This document shows, in pieces, positions 2,615 to 56,562 of a stretch of DNA of 64,000 nt. The DNA comes from a virus: positions 1-64,000 of the IMG/VR virus record IMGVR_UViG_3300050343_000220, one strand, 5' to 3'. Numbering within the stretch: the stretch's first letter is position 1; every line of letters begins with the position of its first letter. The position numbers were made by a program, and so were the translations under genes. Under the pieces are notes generated by a model, which was not told the DNA's origin, did not search any database, and saw only the letters and a program-made list of their open reading frames with translations.

Positions 2615-3110
2615 AGTTCTTGAGCACTTTGGTGCTGAAGCCCCTGCTCTCCTGAACACATATGCCTGTGCAGTTGAAGATGCTCTGATCGAGCAAGTTC
2701 AGCGCGGCAACAATGTCCTCAGTGCATTCGAAGCTTCTACCGAAGAGAACGGTGCAATGAACCTGATGCTCACCAACCCTGATGTGTTGGCTGATTACGT
2801 CAATGAGTTCTTCGGTCCACAGGGTCCATACCCAACTGAGACCGCTGAAGAGACACAAGTCCGTCAGCAGACAGAAGCTCGTGCACAGTTCGAAGCTGAG
2901 ATCCAAGCTCAAGAGCAAGGTCAAGTCCCACAGAACTTCCAGCGTCCTCAAATGGACATGCCTACCCCTGGCCGTCAGGTCAACCAGGCAAATGACTTCT
3001 GGGGTTCCTTCAGCGAAATGATGGATAGCTCCCCTGAGAACGCATGGCGTTACCTCTCACAGGCTCCTCAAGGTGCTCTGCAAGCTAAGGCCCTTATTCA
3101 AGACATGTAA
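2118..3110 (+). CDS. Scaffold-like Ala/Gln/Pro-rich head protein, overprinted on portal 3' end
   Basis: A 330-residue protein beginning with GTG at 2118, with a strong ribosome binding site (TAAGGAG, 2101-2107) ten bases upstream. The first 150 residues are almost only Ala, Gln, Pro, Ser and Thr. The rest is acidic, helical and Gln/Glu-rich and ends in a short helical tail, a layout typical of capsid scaffolding or assembly proteins. The first 497 bases overlap the portal gene in a different frame. Codons here are rich in CAG, GCG and CAA, as expected of a translated frame. It lies directly after the portal, where scaffolds are usually found, and its stop overlaps the next start (TAATG). The scaffold role is inferred. 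Confidence 0.6.
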   Translation: MEVTSQQAQAVSPTSSAAPTNYVPSAASQYATNQSPTSPASMGQPMAAPQAPVYQASAQAPQASAATQGNPWQQAFQALSASLNTSSPSQAQVSPSAYQTTPTPQATTQPSWASMAPQVQQISQPQVSTQSYTESDVSSLVQQAVQHGASQAQDQYLSGISGESLEVLEHFGAEAPALLNTYACAVEDALIEQVQRGNNVLSAFEASTEENGAMNLMLTNPDVLADYVNEFFGPQGPYPTETAEETQVRQQTEARAQFEAEIQAQEQGQVPQNFQRPQMDMPTPGRQVNQANDFWGSFSEMMDSSPENAWRYLSQAPQGALQAKALIQDM

Positions 3111-4191: not shown

Positions 4192-5133
4192 ATGGCATCT
4201 ACAAAGAGTACAGGAGATTCTGTCCGTGCATATCTCCGTGATATCGGACGTATTCCTTTACTTGAGCATGACGAAGAGATTTTGTTGGGCAGGCAAGTAC
4301 AACGAATGATGGAGATTAGAGCTTGCGAAGACTTACTGCATAATCCCAGTAAAGATGAGTTGGCTAATTCTCTAGAAATGACAACAAAAGAACTTCGCAA
4401 GCAATTACGTGATGGAGAAAAAGCCAAAGACAAAATGGTTACTGCCAATCTCCGGCTTGTTGTATCAGTCGCCAAAAAATACACTAAGCGGAACATGGAT
4501 TTACTGGATATCATCCAAGAGGGCACCATTGGCCTGGTTCGCGGTGTGGAGAAGTTTGATCCTGGTCGTGGTTACAAGTTTTCTACTTACGCCTACTGGT
4601 GGATCCGCCAAGGGATCACTCGCGCTATCGCTGAAAAATCGAGGGCGATTCGTTTACCAATCCATGTTACTGAGAACCTCAACAAACTTAAGAAAGCCCA
4701 GCGTGAACTAAGTCAGATCAATGGGCATTTGCCAAATGTTTTTGAACTATCTGAATATTTAAACTTAAAGGTAGATGAAATTAAAGATTTAATGTGCAAG
4801 GCTCGTCAACCTACCTCTCTAGAAATTAAAATTGGAGAGAATAGGGATACAGCATTGATTGATCTATTAGAAGATAAAACTCAACTGCCAGAAATGCTTT
4901 TGGAGCAGCAGTTTATTAAAGATGATATCCGTGAACTAATTACCGAGTTGCCTGAGATGCAAGCAGCTGTAATTAGTATGCGCTATGGGATTGGTGAAGA
5001 TATTCTTGAACCAATGTCAATGACAGCTATTGGTCAAGTTTTAAACATGAGTCGTGATCGTGTAAGGACACTTGAACACAAGGCTCTAAAGAACCTGCGT
5101 GAAGAATCAGAATCTGTCAATGACTATCTTTAA
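4192..5133 (+). CDS. Sigma-70 family RNA polymerase sigma factor, cyanobacterial group 2-like
   Basis: A 313-residue sigma factor, about the length of cyanobacterial group 2 (non-essential RpoD-like) sigma factors. Region 1.2 is at the start (DSVRAYLRDIGRIPLLEHDE). Region 2 spans about residues 85-155, with the core-binding helix (NLRLVVSVAKKY) and the -10-recognition part (YKFSTYAYWWIRQGITRAIA). Region 3 covers about 160-230. Region 4, with the -35-binding helix-turn-helix, is at 240-305 (LNMSRDRVRTLEHKALKNLR). All regions look intact, so it should bind host core polymerase and redirect it. It is placed among head genes, which suggests a role in late transcription; the TAnAATAG elements nearby are candidate targets. 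Similarity points to acquisition from a cyanobacterial host. Confidence 0.93.
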   Translation: MASTKSTGDSVRAYLRDIGRIPLLEHDEEILLGRQVQRMMEIRACEDLLHNPSKDELANSLEMTTKELRKQLRDGEKAKDKMVTANLRLVVSVAKKYTKRNMDLLDIIQEGTIGLVRGVEKFDPGRGYKFSTYAYWWIRQGITRAIAEKSRAIRLPIHVTENLNKLKKAQRELSQINGHLPNVFELSEYLNLKVDEIKDLMCKARQPTSLEIKIGENRDTALIDLLEDKTQLPEMLLEQQFIKDDIRELITELPEMQAAVISMRYGIGEDILEPMSMTAIGQVLNMSRDRVRTLEHKALKNLREESESVNDYL

Positions 5134-30158: not shown

Positions 30159-30359
30159 TTGGAAACTGTCAGACGGAAAATACAAGCAAAGAAATTTTAT
30201 ACAACTCTGCCGCACAAGATAAATGGTGCGGTGGAGGATTTTAAGCGTTCAACACCAGAGCCTGATCCTGAGCTGGATTGGAAATTTGAAGAGGTGGGAG
30301 AGTTTGGCCAAGACGGCTGGACAATTTCTTATACACACAAATCAAAGAAAGACAGTTAG
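30159..30359 (+). CDS. Hypothetical protein, start uncertain
   Basis: A 66-residue protein if it starts at the TTG at 30159, which has no ribosome binding site. The frame stays open back to 30087 with protein-like sequence (GKWIYQFNSRSP) but no ATG, GTG or TTG. The true start may be an unusual codon. Charged, Trp-containing sequence. Convergent with the SET gene, overlapping it by 4 bases. Confidence 0.4.
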   Translation: METVRRKIQAKKFYTTLPHKINGAVEDFKRSTPEPDPELDWKFEEVGEFGQDGWTISYTHKSKKDS

Positions 30360-30757
30360 TAGTCTCCGAAGTCGCATTCGTCATCTTCATATCCATAGTC
30401 AATAAAGATTTCTGAACCGGCTGGAATATCTTCTGTTGCATAGTGGCGCATGACTTCATTAACAGTGTCTAACTCGTAAGCAGCGTTGTTATTAGAAGAG
30501 TGATTATAAAGCGCAGCAAATCCGAAACCTAGGACAACATCACTTGCTCCTGGGTTGTCTGATGAATCGTAAGTATAACGAACAACAATATCTGCTTTTT
30601 TACGTAGCTCCTTCATTGTAAAAGTGCAGTAAGGTGACTCTTGCAATACATCATGCTTGGCAATAGCTTTATGGGCAAATACACCCCATCGATGAACATC
30701 AGAACTTGCAATAACTAAGTTCGGATTCAAAAAAAGTTCAGTGAGTTCTAAGTTCAT
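30356..30757 (-). CDS. SET domain protein (lysine methyltransferase-like)
   Basis: A 133-residue protein that is essentially one SET domain. RWGVFAHKAI (23-32) is the N-terminal S-adenosylmethionine-binding strand. GFGFAALYNHSSNNN (77-91) has the NH(S/x)xxxN core, and EIFIDYGY (116-123) has the likely catalytic Tyr121. SET proteins transfer methyl groups from S-adenosylmethionine to lysines, mostly in eukaryotes, with scattered cases in bacteria and viruses. The target here is unknown. It lies alone on the minus strand among late + strand genes. No post-SET cysteines are seen. Confidence 0.8.
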   Translation of the reverse strand: MNLELTELFLNPNLVIASSDVHRWGVFAHKAIAKHDVLQESPYCTFTMKELRKKADIVVRYTYDSSDNPGASDVVLGFGFAALYNHSSNNNAAYELDTVNEVMRHYATEDIPAGSEIFIDYGYEDDECDFGDY

Positions 30758-32289: not shown

Positions 32290-32556
32290 GTGGTTGATAG
32301 AAGACGCTTACGTGCAGGTGATTCCTATACTCCAAAAAGTAGAGGACCTGCAATAGCTAAGCAGCGTGCTGCTCAATACAGATTTAATGCACAGCGTCAG
32401 CCATTCAGAACTGAGCAAAGTCCAGGTACAGGTGGCTTTGGATCAGGACTTGAAACACAAATTATGCGTAATCAAGAAGCTTCATATGACAAGGCAAGGT
32501 CTGAATCATATCGACCAGAAACATTTAAATATAAAAACGTTAGGCAACTTGATTGA
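32290..32556 (+). CDS. Hypothetical basic protein
   Basis: An 88-residue Arg/Gln/Tyr-rich protein with GTG start, preceded by a good candidate promoter. Last + strand gene of the late block; its end overlaps the convergent kinase-like gene by 17 bases. Function unknown. Confidence 0.5.
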   Translation: MVDRRRLRAGDSYTPKSRGPAIAKQRAAQYRFNAQRQPFRTEQSPGTGGFGSGLETQIMRNQEASYDKARSESYRPETFKYKNVRQLD

Positions 32557-33220
32557 TCTTTTGCAGGCGACTGAAACCTTGTTTAGCAAGATCCAAGCCT
32601 TGAGCAATATCGCCACCTTCGATGTAATCCATAACAGTGGCTCGTAGAATGTGCCCCATTTCAGGAATGCCTGCAGCTGCAAAACCTTCAGCAGTTACGT
32701 GAGTTAACCAAGCGGCTTTTTGTGAATCATCTTCCAGCTTCCCTGAAATACCAAAGTCAATTTGCATTGGCCTTCCAGTCATTTTGTTATACATAATGTT
32801 GCCATTATGCCTGTCTTCTAATTGAATCCCTTTAAGTGCCATCTGCCCAAGCTGTTGATTTACGCGAACAGCATCCATTCCGGTAGGGAAAGTATTTGGA
32901 TCTCCACGTAGTTCAAAGTTATCTCTGACGTCTTCCATTTCAATACGATTTCCAATACCTCCTTGGAATTTCTCTAGACCAGCAACTTTAGGCGCAATAC
33001 CCATTTCCGCAGCTATGGCTTGCATATTGACTTCGTTTTCAAGACTGCGCTCAAATATACTTTCATCCTTTTGAGTTTGCTTCATTACATTTCCAGGTGT
33101 GTCAGATTCATAAACAACACCATTAGCACCAGAACCAATAGGAGTAGTCCGGTTCGAAGCCAACTTCTGTTCTCTTAAATTCTCACCAAAAGCTCTAAAT
33201 AATTCACCCGCGTATCGCAT
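32540..33220 (-). CDS. Atypical protein kinase-like protein
   Basis: A 226-residue protein with the elements of the kinase fold in order. They are a glycine-rich loop (IGSGANGVVY, 28-37), a candidate ATP-binding Lys47, a helix-C Glu63, and a catalytic loop EDRHNGN with Asp136 and Asn141, using the DxHxxN spacing seen in aminoglycoside-phosphotransferase and RIO/Bud32-like kinases. The DFG triad is at 155-157 (QIDFGIS). All the residues needed for phosphate transfer seem present, though it is small. It could phosphorylate a host or virion protein or a small molecule. It has a candidate promoter and a gene-free upstream region. Confidence 0.65.
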   Translation of the reverse strand: MRYAGELFRAFGENLREQKLASNRTTPIGSGANGVVYESDTPGNVMKQTQKDESIFERSLENEVNMQAIAAEMGIAPKVAGLEKFQGGIGNRIEMEDVRDNFELRGDPNTFPTGMDAVRVNQQLGQMALKGIQLEDRHNGNIMYNKMTGRPMQIDFGISGKLEDDSQKAAWLTHVTAEGFAAAGIPEMGHILRATVMDYIEGGDIAQGLDLAKQGFSRLQKINQVA

Positions 33221-46607: not shown

Positions 46608-47240
46608 TCATCCCCACATTGCGCGAGATATTTGTGGAAGTTCCGTATCAAGTATTTCGCCAACACTTCGAGCAATGGACATATGCTCCTTCTGAGTGCC
46701 ATTATCACCACGCAGGGCGACATAGTGAAGCCAACTACGAATAGTACCTGACATATATAGCTTAGTAACTGTATTGATTGGAAGTACAGATCTAGCACAC
46801 TCTTTAGCTACACCAGAATGCAACAGTGACTCATACAAACGTACTGACTCTCTGAAGTGATCATCAATACGTTGCTGATAATACTCTTGAGTTTCTTCTT
46901 CTAGATCATCAATAGAGTTTTGACGATTGTCATAGTCTTGACGCCTTAGTTCAGGAAGTACTGTAGCAAAAGTGTCAGTAGGTATTGCATACCGTTGACT
47001 AAATTCTTGAAAGGTAAACGAGCGATGCCGCAAGATTTGGGGTGAAATTGCTCTAGTAGTATCAATTTGTACACACATAGATGCCATTTCGAATGGACTC
47101 CAATGCTTGTGCTTAATTAAATACTTAATTAGTTTTTCAACTTCAGGATTTTCTTCATTGCTTGGGTTGGATACACGCGCAATTTTGCCTATTAAAGCTT
47201 CTGCATTTGGTGTAATCCAAACGAGTTTTGCTGAATGCAT
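46608..47240 (-). CDS. thyX: Thymidylate synthase ThyX (flavin-dependent)
   Basis: A 210-residue enzyme that makes dTMP from dUMP with methylene-tetrahydrofolate and FAD. The signature RHRSFTFQEFSQRY fits RHRxxSxxxxSxR. Conserved stretches HWSPFEMASM and LRGDNGTQKEHM are also present. The length is usual for ThyX. It lies beside the ribonucleotide reductase genes and completes the supply of DNA precursors. ThyX is frequent in cyanophages. Confidence 0.95.
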   Translation of the reverse strand: MHSAKLVWITPNAEALIGKIARVSNPSNEENPEVEKLIKYLIKHKHWSPFEMASMCVQIDTTRAISPQILRHRSFTFQEFSQRYAIPTDTFATVLPELRRQDYDNRQNSIDDLEEETQEYYQQRIDDHFRESVRLYESLLHSGVAKECARSVLPINTVTKLYMSGTIRSWLHYVALRGDNGTQKEHMSIARSVGEILDTELPQISRAMWG

Positions 47241-47651: not shown

Positions 47652-48383
47652 TCAAGCGTATTGAGGCAGGTTTTGATTGGCAGTCTCGAAGAAAGCTGGC
47701 ATACGACTAGCGCGTGTTTCAGCTAAGCCTTCAGCCTTGCCTCTGGTGTATAGAGAATCTGAACTCGCAAGCCAGAAGTTGCTGGAGAGATGCTTGTGAT
47801 CAGCTTCCCCTTGGAGGGACTGAAGGCACCATGCGACCGTAGCGCGGCGGAGATTGTTGAGGGTCTTGTCAGATTTAAGTCCAAGCGCTTCACATACGAG
47901 TGTGTTTGCCGCGACGTGGGTCTGTTCGTCTCGTGAGATGTCGGCGCTTGTCGTGCGTAATCCTGTATCTCCGAGGAATCGGAAGATCGGTAAGAGAACG
48001 AAGAAGACGGATCTCTCCAATACAACGGCTTTAAGGACAGGGTGCCTATCCAATTCAAGCCATGTTTTACAGATGTGCGCAGCTTCTTTCTCAAACTTAG
48101 GGGAGACTCCATGCGCAGCAGCTGCGAAATTGAGTGCAATATCATGATTTTCTTCATCAACAACGTTAGAAGCAAGTAGCTCCTTACAGCCTTTGACGTC
48201 AGGTAGATCACCTTTCATAGCATCACTAATGAAGTCACCTACTGGGATTTCAAGACAACGGAGTGCAAGTGCACGTTGAATTACATCTTCACCACCAGTC
48301 AATAGTTGACCAGCAGATACTTGAACCGGGGTCCATGTACGCTTGCGCTGATGAAGATGAATGTAAGGAGTTTCTGCTTTCAT
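47652..48383 (-). CDS. Ribonucleotide reductase beta subunit (class I, NrdB-like)
   Basis: A 243-residue ferritin-like protein. The metal ligands typical of class I beta subunits are visible as E77-x-x-H80 (DEENH), Glu123 and E153-x-x-H156 (DEQTH), with Glu45 a candidate first ligand. At 243 residues it is much shorter than the usual 320-370, as in the compact cyanophage type. It makes the radical or metal-centred oxidant for the alpha subunit, encoded directly upstream. The presence of a beta gene argues against a class II enzyme, the older label for this cyanophage family. Confidence 0.8.
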   Translation of the reverse strand: MKAETPYIHLHQRKRTWTPVQVSAGQLLTGGEDVIQRALALRCLEIPVGDFISDAMKGDLPDVKGCKELLASNVVDEENHDIALNFAAAAHGVSPKFEKEAAHICKTWLELDRHPVLKAVVLERSVFFVLLPIFRFLGDTGLRTTSADISRDEQTHVAANTLVCEALGLKSDKTLNNLRRATVAWCLQSLQGEADHKHLSSNFWLASSDSLYTRGKAEGLAETRASRMPAFFETANQNLPQYA

Positions 48384-48401: not shown

Positions 48402-49820
48402 TTACTCGGCGCACCCTACGCAGGATGCGGGGTCGTTAAAGACATCTAAAATGTCATCGTCGGCATCGTCATCATTGAATCCAAACATCTCACCGAAGTT
48501 TCCATCTAAAGCAGCAAGAGCATCGTCTTTTGCTTGAGTGTTTTGCATAACCTGCAATGAATAATACATAGAGGTTTGCGGGGAACTGAGCCAGGATTCA
48601 ATGAATTTATCGTCGTATTGAACTACGTCTGACCAACTATTGAAACTATATCCGTGGTTGAGGCCAGTTTTAGACAACATTGTCATGATTCCATTTACTA
48701 CTCGGTAGTAAGTGTCCCACCCAACAGATTCAGCTGTTTCAACATCACCGTAGTCAAATGTTTCGACACCGAATGTAGAGCTGTCCCTATCAACTGTACG
48801 CCCGATTGGCGGTGCAAGTTCGGGGGTAGTTGTATAGCCTGCTCTGTCTTTGTAGCGATAAGAACAAGACGCCGTAGGTGCAATAGCAAAGCAACGGTCC
48901 ATATTGGCACGGCTTGCAATAGCAGCAGCGGAATCAATTCCTAATTGAAGTGCTTTAACTATATTACGTGCTTCAGGAGTCACGATGTAATCACCTAATG
49001 GGTAGAGGTGTTCATTCAATGCTTCTCCGAACTGAGCGTACGTAACTCCTTCCAGTGAGAGCAAATTGGCGAGACCAAGCATTCCCAGGCCGACTTGGCG
49101 ATCTTCTTCTTGAGAAAGATACTCGCCAGTTTTCTCAACACCAGTTTTACCATGTAAATCAATTAGTTCTTCCATGCCACAGATAAATGCAGCAGGCAAA
49201 TCTTCAGGACGGCAAGCACCCAAATTTATGTGCTCCAAGAGACAAGTGCCCCTGCTTTTGAGAAAAACCTCCAAGCACACGTTCGCGAAAATCCTTTCAC
49301 CGTGTTGATCATGCCTAATCTTGGCAAGCCAAATGTCACCACGAGCAATACCTTTGATGATTGCATCCTTGACTGCAGGGATTGCCATATCCCACATTAC
49401 GTTGGACAAGTTGACACAACGTTTTGCCCACGGAATTTCATGCCGAGGCATGTTTACAAACTCAAGAATATCTTTGTGGTTTAAATCAAGGTGCAGTACG
49501 ACAGCACCATTTTTATATACACCACCTCTACGTAGCTGTTCATTCAAACAACTATAGATTTTGCCAAACGAACAAGGCCCAGAACTTACTAGCCCTTTAC
49601 CGTTGTCATGACCAGCAGGGCGCAGATTGGATAGGTGTACAGCAACCCCTGCTCCATAACGCAGTCCGTGACTGACATAGCGCCAGCTAGCTTCAATCCC
49701 GTTTGGTCCTTCCATACTGTCTTCAACTACAAAAACTGTGCAGCTGACGGGCAGGCGACTTGTAGGATCGTCAATCCAATTTTGCACTCGACCTGTGCGA
49801 GCAATTACTTTATTTTCCAT
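48402..49820 (-). CDS. Ribonucleotide reductase alpha subunit (class I, compact cyanophage type)
   Basis: A 472-residue catalytic subunit that reduces ribonucleotides to deoxyribonucleotides. N180-x-C182-x-E184 (NVCLE) is the thiyl radical site, C27 (PVSCT) and C193 (GTCLL) are the reducing pair, and PTASCSYRYKD matches the phosphate-binding loop. The C-terminal CVGCAE pair takes electrons from thioredoxin, which this phage encodes at 51078. No N-terminal ATP-cone is present, so feedback control may be lost. Smaller than the usual 700-plus residues. Start overlaps the MazG-like gene. Confidence 0.88.
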   Translation of the reverse strand: MENKVIARTGRVQNWIDDPTSRLPVSCTVFVVEDSMEGPNGIEASWRYVSHGLRYGAGVAVHLSNLRPAGHDNGKGLVSSGPCSFGKIYSCLNEQLRRGGVYKNGAVVLHLDLNHKDILEFVNMPRHEIPWAKRCVNLSNVMWDMAIPAVKDAIIKGIARGDIWLAKIRHDQHGERIFANVCLEVFLKSRGTCLLEHINLGACRPEDLPAAFICGMEELIDLHGKTGVEKTGEYLSQEEDRQVGLGMLGLANLLSLEGVTYAQFGEALNEHLYPLGDYIVTPEARNIVKALQLGIDSAAAIASRANMDRCFAIAPTASCSYRYKDRAGYTTTPELAPPIGRTVDRDSSTFGVETFDYGDVETAESVGWDTYYRVVNGIMTMLSKTGLNHGYSFNSWSDVVQYDDKFIESWLSSPQTSMYYSLQVMQNTQAKDDALAALDGNFGEMFGFNDDDADDDILDVFNDPASCVGCAE

Positions 49821-50250
49821 TTGTGTCGTAGTAGTTAAGTTGTGGACGTGGCAGACAATCAGCTAAGTCAGGTGGCACATAGTTAGGTCCTTTGAGTACC
49901 TTCCCATCTTCACGATAAATTGGCTTTCCTTGTTCATCTAGTTTACTGAGATTAGATTCAAAGACGAGGGTCATCGCCTTGTCTAAATCAATACCATAAG
50001 TAGCTGCAAACTGATAACAAACAAAGACAAGATCGGATAATTCTTTGACAACTTCTTCACGTGCTGCAGGGTTTTCGGGATCAGCGAAACACTCTTCAGC
50101 TGCCGCTAAAAACTCATTAGATTCTTCTCTAATGAGACGAGTTTGCATGTCCCATAATTTCTTCTTAATGAAACCATAGCGTGAGATATTTGGCAAAATT
50201 TCTTGACCAAAGATTTCACGAAACTTACATGCTTGTTCTAGTAATGTCAT
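49810..50250 (-). CDS. MazG-like nucleotide pyrophosphohydrolase
   Basis: A 146-residue all-helical protein. The MazG/all-alpha NTP hydrolase acidic residues appear as RLIREESNEF (EExxE) and KELSDLVFVC (ExxD). The end KVLKGPNYVPPDL is typical of the phage family. These enzymes remove pyrophosphate from NTPs or dNTPs; in cyanophages MazG-type enzymes have also been linked to ppGpp control. It sits in the ribonucleotide reductase operon, right before the alpha subunit. Confidence 0.75.
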   Translation of the reverse strand: MTLLEQACKFREIFGQEILPNISRYGFIKKKLWDMQTRLIREESNEFLAAAEECFADPENPAAREEVVKELSDLVFVCYQFAATYGIDLDKAMTLVFESNLSKLDEQGKPIYREDGKVLKGPNYVPPDLADCLPRPQLNYYDTNGK

Positions 50251-50478
50251 TTATTTTTCTCTAAGTGTGATGCGTCCACGACCTAGGTCATATGGACTTA
50301 GTTCAACATGCACACGATCACCAACAAGAAGTTGGATTTTCCGTGTAATTAATTTACCAGAAGCTCTACATAAGCACTGATGTTCTGCTGGTTCATCCAA
50401 TTCAACATTGAAATAACCGTTGCCACTTTCTTTGAAGATTACACCTTTAGCTTCAACAATATTCGTTTTTTTGCTCAT
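50251..50478 (-). CDS. infA: Translation initiation factor IF-1
   Basis: A 75-residue protein that matches bacterial IF-1 along its length: VEAKGVIFKESGNGYFNVEL, ASGKLITRKIQLLVGDRVHV and ELSPYDLGRGRITLREK. IF-1 binds the ribosomal A site on the 30S subunit during start-codon selection. The fold (OB) and the SPYDLxRGRIT end are intact, so it should be active. A Cys-rich variation (EHQCLCRASG) replaces the usual EVLAHISG. A phage copy is unusual and suggests control of translation during infection. It is cotranscribed with MazG and ribonucleotide reductase. Confidence 0.9.
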   Translation of the reverse strand: MSKKTNIVEAKGVIFKESGNGYFNVELDEPAEHQCLCRASGKLITRKIQLLVGDRVHVELSPYDLGRGRITLREK

Positions 50479-50626
50479 ATGCTTTTACCGTTTTGAAATA
50501 TAATTTGTTGTACTTAACAATCATTTCTTGAATAACTTCACGATCACTAGTTTGACCAACAGTTTGTAGATGTTGAGAGCAACCGTGAAGTTCACCTATA
50601 AGTAATAGATACATCTCAGGAGGCAT
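50453..50626 (-). CDS. Small hypothetical protein (57 aa)
   Basis: A 57-residue helical protein. Its ATG overlaps the stop of the upstream gene (TAATG) with an AAAGGA site before it, and its end overlaps the IF-1 start by 26 bases. The overlaps support translation in the operon. No family recognised. Confidence 0.5.
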   Translation of the reverse strand: MPPEMYLLLIGELHGCSQHLQTVGQTSDREVIQEMIVKYNKLYFKTVKAYEQKNEYC

Positions 50627-51077: not shown

Positions 51078-51425
51078 TTAATCAGGATGTGCGTATGTAT
51101 ATGCGTCTAGGGTTGCATGTAGATGTTTAATAATTGAGTTGGCACCTACAAAGCGTTCTACTGATTGTTCGACATAGTCACAATCTTCGTCTCCATCGGC
51201 ATCTAGCCGACAAGAGACTTCCTCGTGGACGACAACGAGCGTCGGTGACAGTTCCACCGATAAGTCCTCCGCCAGCGCTGTAAGGCTGCCTGAGGGTGCT
51301 TTAAGAGGCACAAAGTCGAGCTCAGCTGCTTCGTCTTGCGTGAGAGTTTTGACGTGGTCCTTGAGACGATCGCAAGGAGTACACCCGTCTTGGGTAAATA
51401 CATAAAGCTTGTAGTTTTTCATCAT
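51078..51425 (-). CDS. Thioredoxin/glutaredoxin-like protein
   Basis: A 115-residue protein with the thioredoxin active site C15-T-P-C18 (VFTQDGCTPCDRL) and a later Pro (ELSPTLVVV) in the position of the conserved cis-Pro. Four further Cys/Asp-rich residues follow (CRLDADGDEDCDY). It probably reduces the C-terminal cysteines of the ribonucleotide reductase, encoded in the same operon. It could also serve as polymerase processivity factor as in T7. Two ATG codons are adjacent at the start. Confidence 0.8.
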   Translation of the reverse strand: MMKNYKLYVFTQDGCTPCDRLKDHVKTLTQDEAAELDFVPLKAPSGSLTALAEDLSVELSPTLVVVHEEVSCRLDADGDEDCDYVEQSVERFVGANSIIKHLHATLDAYTYAHPD

Positions 51426-53971: not shown

Positions 53972-54856
53972 TCAACGCCTCATCCGACGTCCACCTCTAC
54001 GTGACATACGTCGTGAACGCATTGGCCGTGACCTACGCATTGGTCGTGACCTACGCATTGCACGTGAACGCATAGGAGCTGAACGCATTGGCCGTGACCT
54101 ACGCATTGGTCGTGACCTACGCATTGGCCGTGCACGATTCATCGCTTTACGAGATGAACTCATACGTGCTGGCCTACCCTGTGCTTTTCTCCGGCGTGCT
54201 TTTACACGTTTAATCTTAGCTTTAAGACGCATTAACTTCATTGAGTTTCCAGAAGCTTTAGCTGCTTTTTTACGAGCTCTAATCTTTCTGATCTTTGAAG
54301 TTAATTTATCTTTTTTCCTGTTATTTTTCTTCGTGGTAATCCGACGAGGCGACTTGGGTTTTGGCTTATCACCTTTACGTTCACCCATAGTTGGTTTTGG
54401 TTTGCGATCAGGTTTTTTCGGATCACTTTTAGGTGATGGCTTTTGAACAGCTGGTGTACTTTTCCCACCGGTAGTTCCTTTACCTCCACCGGTAGTTGCT
54501 TTACCACCACCGGAGTTGCTTGTACCGGAGTTGCTTGTACCGGAGTTGCTTGTACCGGAGTTACTACTACCCGCAGCAGCCATCATCATCATCACGGATG
54601 TGCCGGTGTTATTTTTTGCCATTCCACTTGCACTATTGCTTGTGGATTTAGTTGTATTAGAGTTAGAAGATTTATTCTTATTCGTAGAAGTGTTTCCCGA
54701 ACTCTTAGATTTATTGTTGTTAGTAGAAGTATTTCCCGAGCTTTTTGAAGTGGAACTGGAATTACCTACATTACTAATAGTAATGCTATTTTTATTTACA
54801 GTACCCTTTCGTGCGACACCTCGCATTTTTCGGGTATTTTCTTCTGCAGCTGACAT
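53972..54856 (-). CDS. Protamine-like Arg/Met-repeat protein
   Basis: A 294-residue, extremely basic, low-complexity protein. Residues 30-75 are Ser/Asn/Thr/Lys-rich, and 95-115 are NSGTS pentapeptide repeats. Residues 130-230 are Lys/Arg/Pro-rich with helical stretches. The last 60 residues are repeats of the type RRSRPM. The DNA carries the repeats exactly: a 46-base block at 54015-54060 recurs at 54081-54126, and a 15-base unit is repeated three times at 54511-54555. Such composition fits a protamine- or histone-like DNA condenser. It was not recognised as a known family. Confidence 0.65.
   Translation of the reverse strand: MSAAEENTRKMRGVARKGTVNKNSITISNVGNSSSTSKSSGNTSTNNNKSKSSGNTSTNKNKSSNSNTTKSTSNSASGMAKNNTGTSVMMMMAAAGSSNSGTSNSGTSNSGTSNSGGGKATTGGGKGTTGGKSTPAVQKPSPKSDPKKPDRKPKPTMGERKGDKPKPKSPRRITTKKNNRKKDKLTSKIRKIRARKKAAKASGNSMKLMRLKAKIKRVKARRRKAQGRPARMSSSRKAMNRARPMRRSRPMRRSRPMRSAPMRSRAMRRSRPMRRSRPMRSRRMSRRGGRRMRR
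54015..54126 (-). repeat. Tandem repeats in protamine-like gene
   Basis: A 46-base block occurs twice without change, 66 bases apart, and is itself built of 18-base units that encode Arg/Met/Ser/Pro. Likely to expand and contract by slippage. Confidence 0.8.
54511..54555 (-). repeat. 15-base tandem repeat
   Basis: Three exact copies of CGGAGTTGCTTGTAC, with partial copies at both sides, encoding the pentapeptide repeat NSGTS on the minus strand. Confidence 0.8.
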
Positions 54857-56071: not shown

Positions 56072-56240
56072 TATCTAGATCCTGCTGAGGCATATTTTTC
56101 TGTTGCAACTTTAACAAAAGCTTTGATGAAATTACAGATGGATCTTTGGTTAATGCGCGTACACGCATACGGACAGATCTAGTCTTCCACATGCCAAGTG
56201 ACATGGCAAGACATTTGACTTCTGGAAGAAGTTTAATCAT
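56055..56240 (-). CDS. Hypothetical small protein
   Basis: A 61-residue basic protein with an amphipathic helical start. It overlaps the LAGLIDADG gene by 8 bases. No family recognised. Confidence 0.4.
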   Translation of the reverse strand: MIKLLPEVKCLAMSLGMWKTRSVRMRVRALTKDPSVISSKLLLKLQQKNMPQQDLDNGLVS

Positions 56241-56562
56241 TTTTATTTTCGTATGTATCTAGGCAATCAAGTACTTTGTGAGCACGGCGATCTCCGAGGA
56301 GAGGAAGCATCTTTAAAACAATTCGAGTAACTTCAGTTTTACGGGAACAAGTCCAGCGATAACAAGCTTTGCGTCCAGTAAGGATACGACTTGGTTGACT
56401 ACTTTCATCGTGAATTTTGCCACCAGTGCCCATGACATCTGCAAACATTTGAACAACGTCTTTATCTGTCATACGCATTTGTAATGTCCAAGTATTACTA
56501 CGTTTGTCTTTATAGAGTGATCCTTCTCCTTCGAAGAGCCCTACGGCCCATTCGAAAGACAT
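56233..56562 (-). CDS. LAGLIDADG-type homing endonuclease-like protein
   Basis: A 109-residue protein with one LAGLIDADG helix near the start (FEWAVGLFEGEGSLYKDK), followed by the typical LQMRMTDKDVVQMFADVMG and a basic C-terminal half with RRAHKVLDCL. Single-motif enzymes work as dimers. It lies directly downstream of psbA, on the far side of the psbA terminator. Free-standing homing nucleases near psbA are known in other cyanophages, there usually of HNH type. psbA itself has no intron here. Confidence 0.7.
   Translation of the reverse strand: MSFEWAVGLFEGEGSLYKDKRSNTWTLQMRMTDKDVVQMFADVMGTGGKIHDESSQPSRILTGRKACYRWTCSRKTEVTRIVLKMLPLLGDRRAHKVLDCLDTYENKND

Follow-up and report, generated by a model that had tools for sequence, protein, structure and literature searches.

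The viral record IMGVR_UViG_3300050343_000220 (69,137 bases) encodes a translation initiation factor IF-1 that is fixed across a whole uncultured virus lineage, in which it lies beside the genes for ribonucleotide reductase (RNR). The gene was found in the window, that is, the whole stretch of 64,000 nucleotides analyzed (positions 1 to 64,000 of the record), and is a real gene and not a chance open reading frame. We consider it likely that the product is a working IF-1 of the bacterial type, made together with the enzymes of nucleotide metabolism and sustaining initiation during infection. Phage IF-1 as such is already known from huge phages (PMC7162821); new are its lineage-wide presence in a mid-sized group of marine cyanophages, its fixed position in the RNR cassette, and a diverged loop.

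The IF-1 gene and its setting

The preliminary description had proposed a full-length IF-1 of 75 residues with the C-terminal end ELSPYDLxRGRIT. The end is present in the product, and the profile search against IF-1 models that had been suggested gave scores above the cut-offs of both Pfam eIF-1a (PF01176; E=1.8e-14, 53.5 bits vs. 30.2) and, narrowly, the NCBIfam infA equivalog TIGR00008 (63.8 bits vs. 61.15). All twelve top sequence matches in a phmmer search of the PDB were IF-1, as were 12/12 top Foldseek matches of an AlphaFold2 model (pLDDT 84.2, built from 31 viral sequences), including the 30S-bound 9fco, 9h9h, and 1hr0. The model consists of a single OB-fold domain and matches IF-1 4ql5 with a TMt of 0.94 and an rmsd of 1.0. 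In PHROGs, the product matched phrog_30201 (E=1.2e-13), a family labelled "unknown function" which thereby gains a likely one. The description had also raised another small OB-fold protein as the outcome that a profile or structural match might favor, and the N-terminal domain of RsgA is one such protein. A weaker Pfam match to RsgA_N (1.7e-7, 31.3 bits) was indeed observed, and YjeQ/RsgA appears among the lower-ranked Foldseek matches, but the scores of the IF-1 models are far above it, no GTPase domain is attached, and the best structures are all IF-1, with RsgA and eIF1A-type OB folds ranked below. Because IF-1 comes first in the profiles, the PDB sequences and the fold search, the product is an IF-1 homologue, and the chance that it is a different OB-fold protein is close to nil.

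Table 1. The IF-1 gene and its neighbors (positions in the window)
Feature	Position	Strand	Matches and remarks
thyX, flavin-dependent thymidylate synthase	46608..47240	-	PF02511 3.4e-44
nrdB, class I RNR beta subunit	47652..48383	-	phrog_6799 1.8e-100
nrdA, RNR large subunit, cyanophage type, 472 aa	48402..49820	-	PF02867; phrog_367 2.7e-40
MazG/PRA-PH-like nucleotide pyrophosphohydrolase	49810..50250	-	PF01503 1.1e-7; phrog_671 1.4e-31
infA-like gene (IF-1)	50251..50478	-	75 codons, ATG start, TAA stop (coordinates include stop)
Small upstream gene (DUF7212/phrog_741)	50453..50626	-	3' end overlaps IF-1 start by 26 nt
Thioredoxin-like gene upstream of IF-1	51078..51425	-	weak Thioredoxin matches; phrog_22

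The placement of the gene in an RNR operon, as described earlier, agrees with the arrangement in Table 1, where the TAA of the IF-1 gene directly abuts the ATG of the MazG-like gene, followed by nrdA, nrdB, and thyX. The packing is tight throughout the lineage, the spacing between the IF-1 stop and the mazG ATG being −4 to +44 nt in 59 relatives. Judging from the neighboring genes, expression is probably early to middle. On the upstream side, the thioredoxin-like gene is kept in 55/61 relatives, and the DUF7212/phrog_741 gene was seen in only 10/61. Compared with standard class I/II enzymes, the RNR large subunit appears to be missing the N-terminal part, although its gene stands beside that of a class I beta subunit. 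MazG, nrdA, and nrdB are found in identical order in cyanopodoviruses such as S-CBP3, whose RNR shares 68% identity with the nrdA product; a tblastn search found no IF-1 in any cyanopodovirus record, S-CBP3 included. IF-1 thus seems to have been added to a cassette that is itself widespread.

By its gene content, the record is a psbA-bearing cyanophage with head proteins akin to those of Synechococcus phage S-EIVl (KJ410740). Besides RNR and thyX, the window carries psbA, talC, and a chlorophyll-binding (hli-like) gene, and the single match of the portal-like protein in the phage collection was S-EIVl, with 47% identity; further identities to this phage were 66% for the head protein, 48% for thyX, and about 35% for polA. 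In contrast, no match to IF-1 or RNR was found in S-EIVl. With head genes, psbA, and RNR as its company, and with this context repeated in about 60 viral contigs, the IF-1 gene sits in a genuine phage genome; the synteny rules out host-DNA contamination as its source. Several other genes of the window were recorded. A full sigma-70 factor (regions 1.2 to 4) is encoded at 4192-5133 (+), and a SET-domain protein, unusual for a phage, at 30356-30757 (−; Pfam SET 2.7e-11). The gene at 32540-33220 (−) gave weak matches to kinase-like families, PI3_PI4_kinase (2.4e-5) and ABC1 (7.8e-4), neither of which reached the cut-off. A low-complexity protein with Met-Arg-Ser repeats (RPMRRS) at 53972-54856 (−) and a small gene beside psbA at 56233-56562 (−), homing endonuclease-like by eye, each occur in only 2/61 relatives.

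Distribution and conservation

Scans of IMG/VR gave 60 and 61 IF-1 loci in marine contigs, with 68-89% identity. The cassette is kept together in nearly all of the 61, with nrdA and nrdB near IF-1 in 60, a MazG-like gene in 59, and thyX in 58. Conversely, IF-1 was present in 45/46 nrdB relatives having enough upstream sequence, and the sole exception has 56% identity and a polA neighbor. Among the best 80 head-protein relatives, those of at least 67 kb carry both IF-1 and RNR (5/5); the shorter fragments that lack IF-1 lack RNR as well, so the region was simply not assembled there. A 35.9-kb contig has IF-1, RNR, and replication genes in common with the window and no matching head genes were seen on it; the pair of IF-1 and RNR may therefore occur in a second lineage. 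The relatives form a monophyletic cyanophage IF-1 clade (SH-aLRT 92-99) that is under purifying selection, with a median pN/pS of 0.18 and a dN/dS of 0.12 in 30 unsaturated pairs. In IMGVR_UViG_3300046171_000298 (2875-3110) a frameshift interrupts the IF-1 gene and may be due to misassembly. The only match in a search of genome contigs was a contig with a phage-like IF-1, FZLS01000191 (86% identity), in a Rhodobacteraceae bin, where it is probably contamination of the bin. Matches to IF-1 in "phages" of Listeria, Enterococcus, Staphylococcus, and Acinetobacter appear to stem from host DNA within the deposited sequences and were excluded from the counts.

Reports of phage-encoded initiation factors come mainly from huge phages that possess an extensive translation toolkit. 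IF1 and IF3 were reported from huge phages in 2020, and a redirection of host translation was proposed for IF1 (Al-Shayeb et al. 2020, PMC7162821). The remark in the preliminary description that phage IF-1 is rarely noted was thus fair, although that publication precedes it and 218 IMG/VR stretches, many of them on large contigs and with phage status checked for only some, encode an IF-1 relative. In the collection of papers searched, no cyanophage paper names IF-1, the one text with both terms concerning a Clostridioides difficile phage. The IF-1 of Lak phages shares about 42-43% identity with the window IF-1. The present relatives differ from the huge and Lak phages in being mostly 67-107 kb when long and in forming a separate IF-1 clade. 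In addition, and unlike in huge phages, the 64,000-nt window holds no tRNA genes, and no second translation gene was found among the window proteins tested. A mid-sized marine cyanophage in which IF-1 is the sole translation factor found, with a spread in its lineage equal to that of the adjacent RNR genes, offers a simple system for asking whether a phage benefits from providing or modifying a single initiation factor, in an ecologically important group of hosts.

Ribosome-contact residues and origin

The phage protein has its length, OB fold, GRIxxR C-terminus, and most residues of the 30S face in common with bacterial IF-1 (InfA, TIGR00008/PF01176), and shares 49% identity with the IF-1 of C. 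difficile and 40% with that of E. coli over aligned positions. It differs in having a two-residue insert before strand 3, in the replacement of R41 and R46, and in its position in a phage RNR cassette. In C. difficile IF-1, K39 and M42 touch the 530 loop, R41 and R46 touch the flipped-out A1492/A1493, and H35, Y60, R64, and R66 face S12 (PMC10913371); E. coli IF-1 requires the C-terminal Arg (PMC4611024). The cyanophage clade retains K/R39, Y/F60, R/K64, R66, and R70, with R at position 35, so that five of the seven contact residues (K39, R41, R46, Y60, R64, R66, and R70, C. difficile numbering) are kept or conservatively changed. In 53/53 distinct clade sequences, I/V takes the place of R41 and Q/H that of R46, and with T-R-K fixed at 42-44 the loop reads (I/V)TRKI(Q/H), with little or no variation among the 53. 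Among 71 other IF-1s, mostly from viral contigs, R41 is present in 61 and absent in 10, and Q is found at position 46 in 11. As far as these sequences go, R41 is thus not strictly defining for IF-1. The replacement of both arginines means that 30S binding or activity could differ, and three readings suit the loop: compensation through the R-K pair, a loop of the host type, or a change in function.

The second of these readings touches the origin of the gene. A provisional picocyanobacterial IF-1 sequence has the two-residue insert and a CLCRA motif in common with the clade and lacks R41. This provisional host sequence shares 62% identity with the window protein and is sister to the cyanophage clade (SH-aLRT 96). 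The phage IF-1 was probably captured from a picocyanobacterial host, a lead that depends on the provisional sequence. No picocyanobacterial IF-1 was found among 397 genomes of the family of the Rhodobacteraceae bin, among plasmids, or in the literature search.

Proposed function and alternatives

In the proposed mechanism, the phage would co-produce IF-1 with the nucleotide-metabolism enzymes, and the OB barrel would most likely bind the A site of the host 30S subunit alongside IF-2 and IF-3. Once host gene expression is shut down, the phage supply would replace that of the host, and initiation on phage mRNAs would be sustained, and possibly tuned, by the phage IF-1. This reading has the best support, from the IF-1 profiles and structures, the retained residues of the ribosome face, purifying selection, and the stable place of the gene in the lineage and in the mazG-nrdA-nrdB cassette. 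As a counterpoint, S-EIVl, the nearest cultured relative, lives without IF-1.

An RNA chaperone activity of IF-1 has been published (Croitoru 2006, as cited in PMC10913371), and the OB fold likewise agrees with a protein whose main task is not initiation and which serves phage RNA as a chaperone of the cold-shock kind or as a transcription antiterminator. Such a role is very unlikely here, as the sequence carries no specific pointer to it and both profile and fold group the product with IF-1. The loss in the clade of both arginines that contact A1492/A1493 would fit a decoy or inhibitor, which by unproductive occupancy of the 30S A site lowers host translation. This is improbable, if slightly less so: phage translation depends on the same ribosomes, the remaining contact residues are conserved, and the gene is packed among genes for nucleotide metabolism and not among takeover genes.

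A working IF-1 could also be a specialized one, in which the (I/V)TRKI(Q/H) loop alters the hold on A1492/A1493 or on the 530 loop and favors phage initiation regions over those of the host. We regard this as possible but doubtful. The near invariance of the loop in the clade, as opposed to the prevalence of R41 in other IF-1s, and the lineage-wide retention of the gene argue for it, whereas the occurrence of Q at position 46 elsewhere argues against it; the provisional picocyanobacterial IF-1, which also lacks R41, suggests moreover that the loop may be near the host type. That the redesigned decoding-centre loop of a lineage-fixed IF-1 reprograms picocyanobacterial start-site selection toward phage mRNAs is likewise a tentative proposal, with the odds against it. 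The start sites themselves, as given by a simple ORF caller, and the Shine-Dalgarno (SD) motifs before them also speak against a role in start choice. The preliminary description had suggested that IF-1 biases initiation to phage messages with GTG or TTG starts or weak ribosome sites, which the window sequence does not support: ATG is the start of 60/67 window genes (about 90%). SD motifs of at least four bases precede 22% of window genes (random 17%), the corresponding shares being 23% vs. 22% in S-EIVl and 16% vs. 23% in S-CBP3. Since these two phages are equally SD-poor without IF-1, SD-poverty is no explanation for IF-1 in the present lineage. Cyanobacteria are likewise low in SD usage (PMC5397173).
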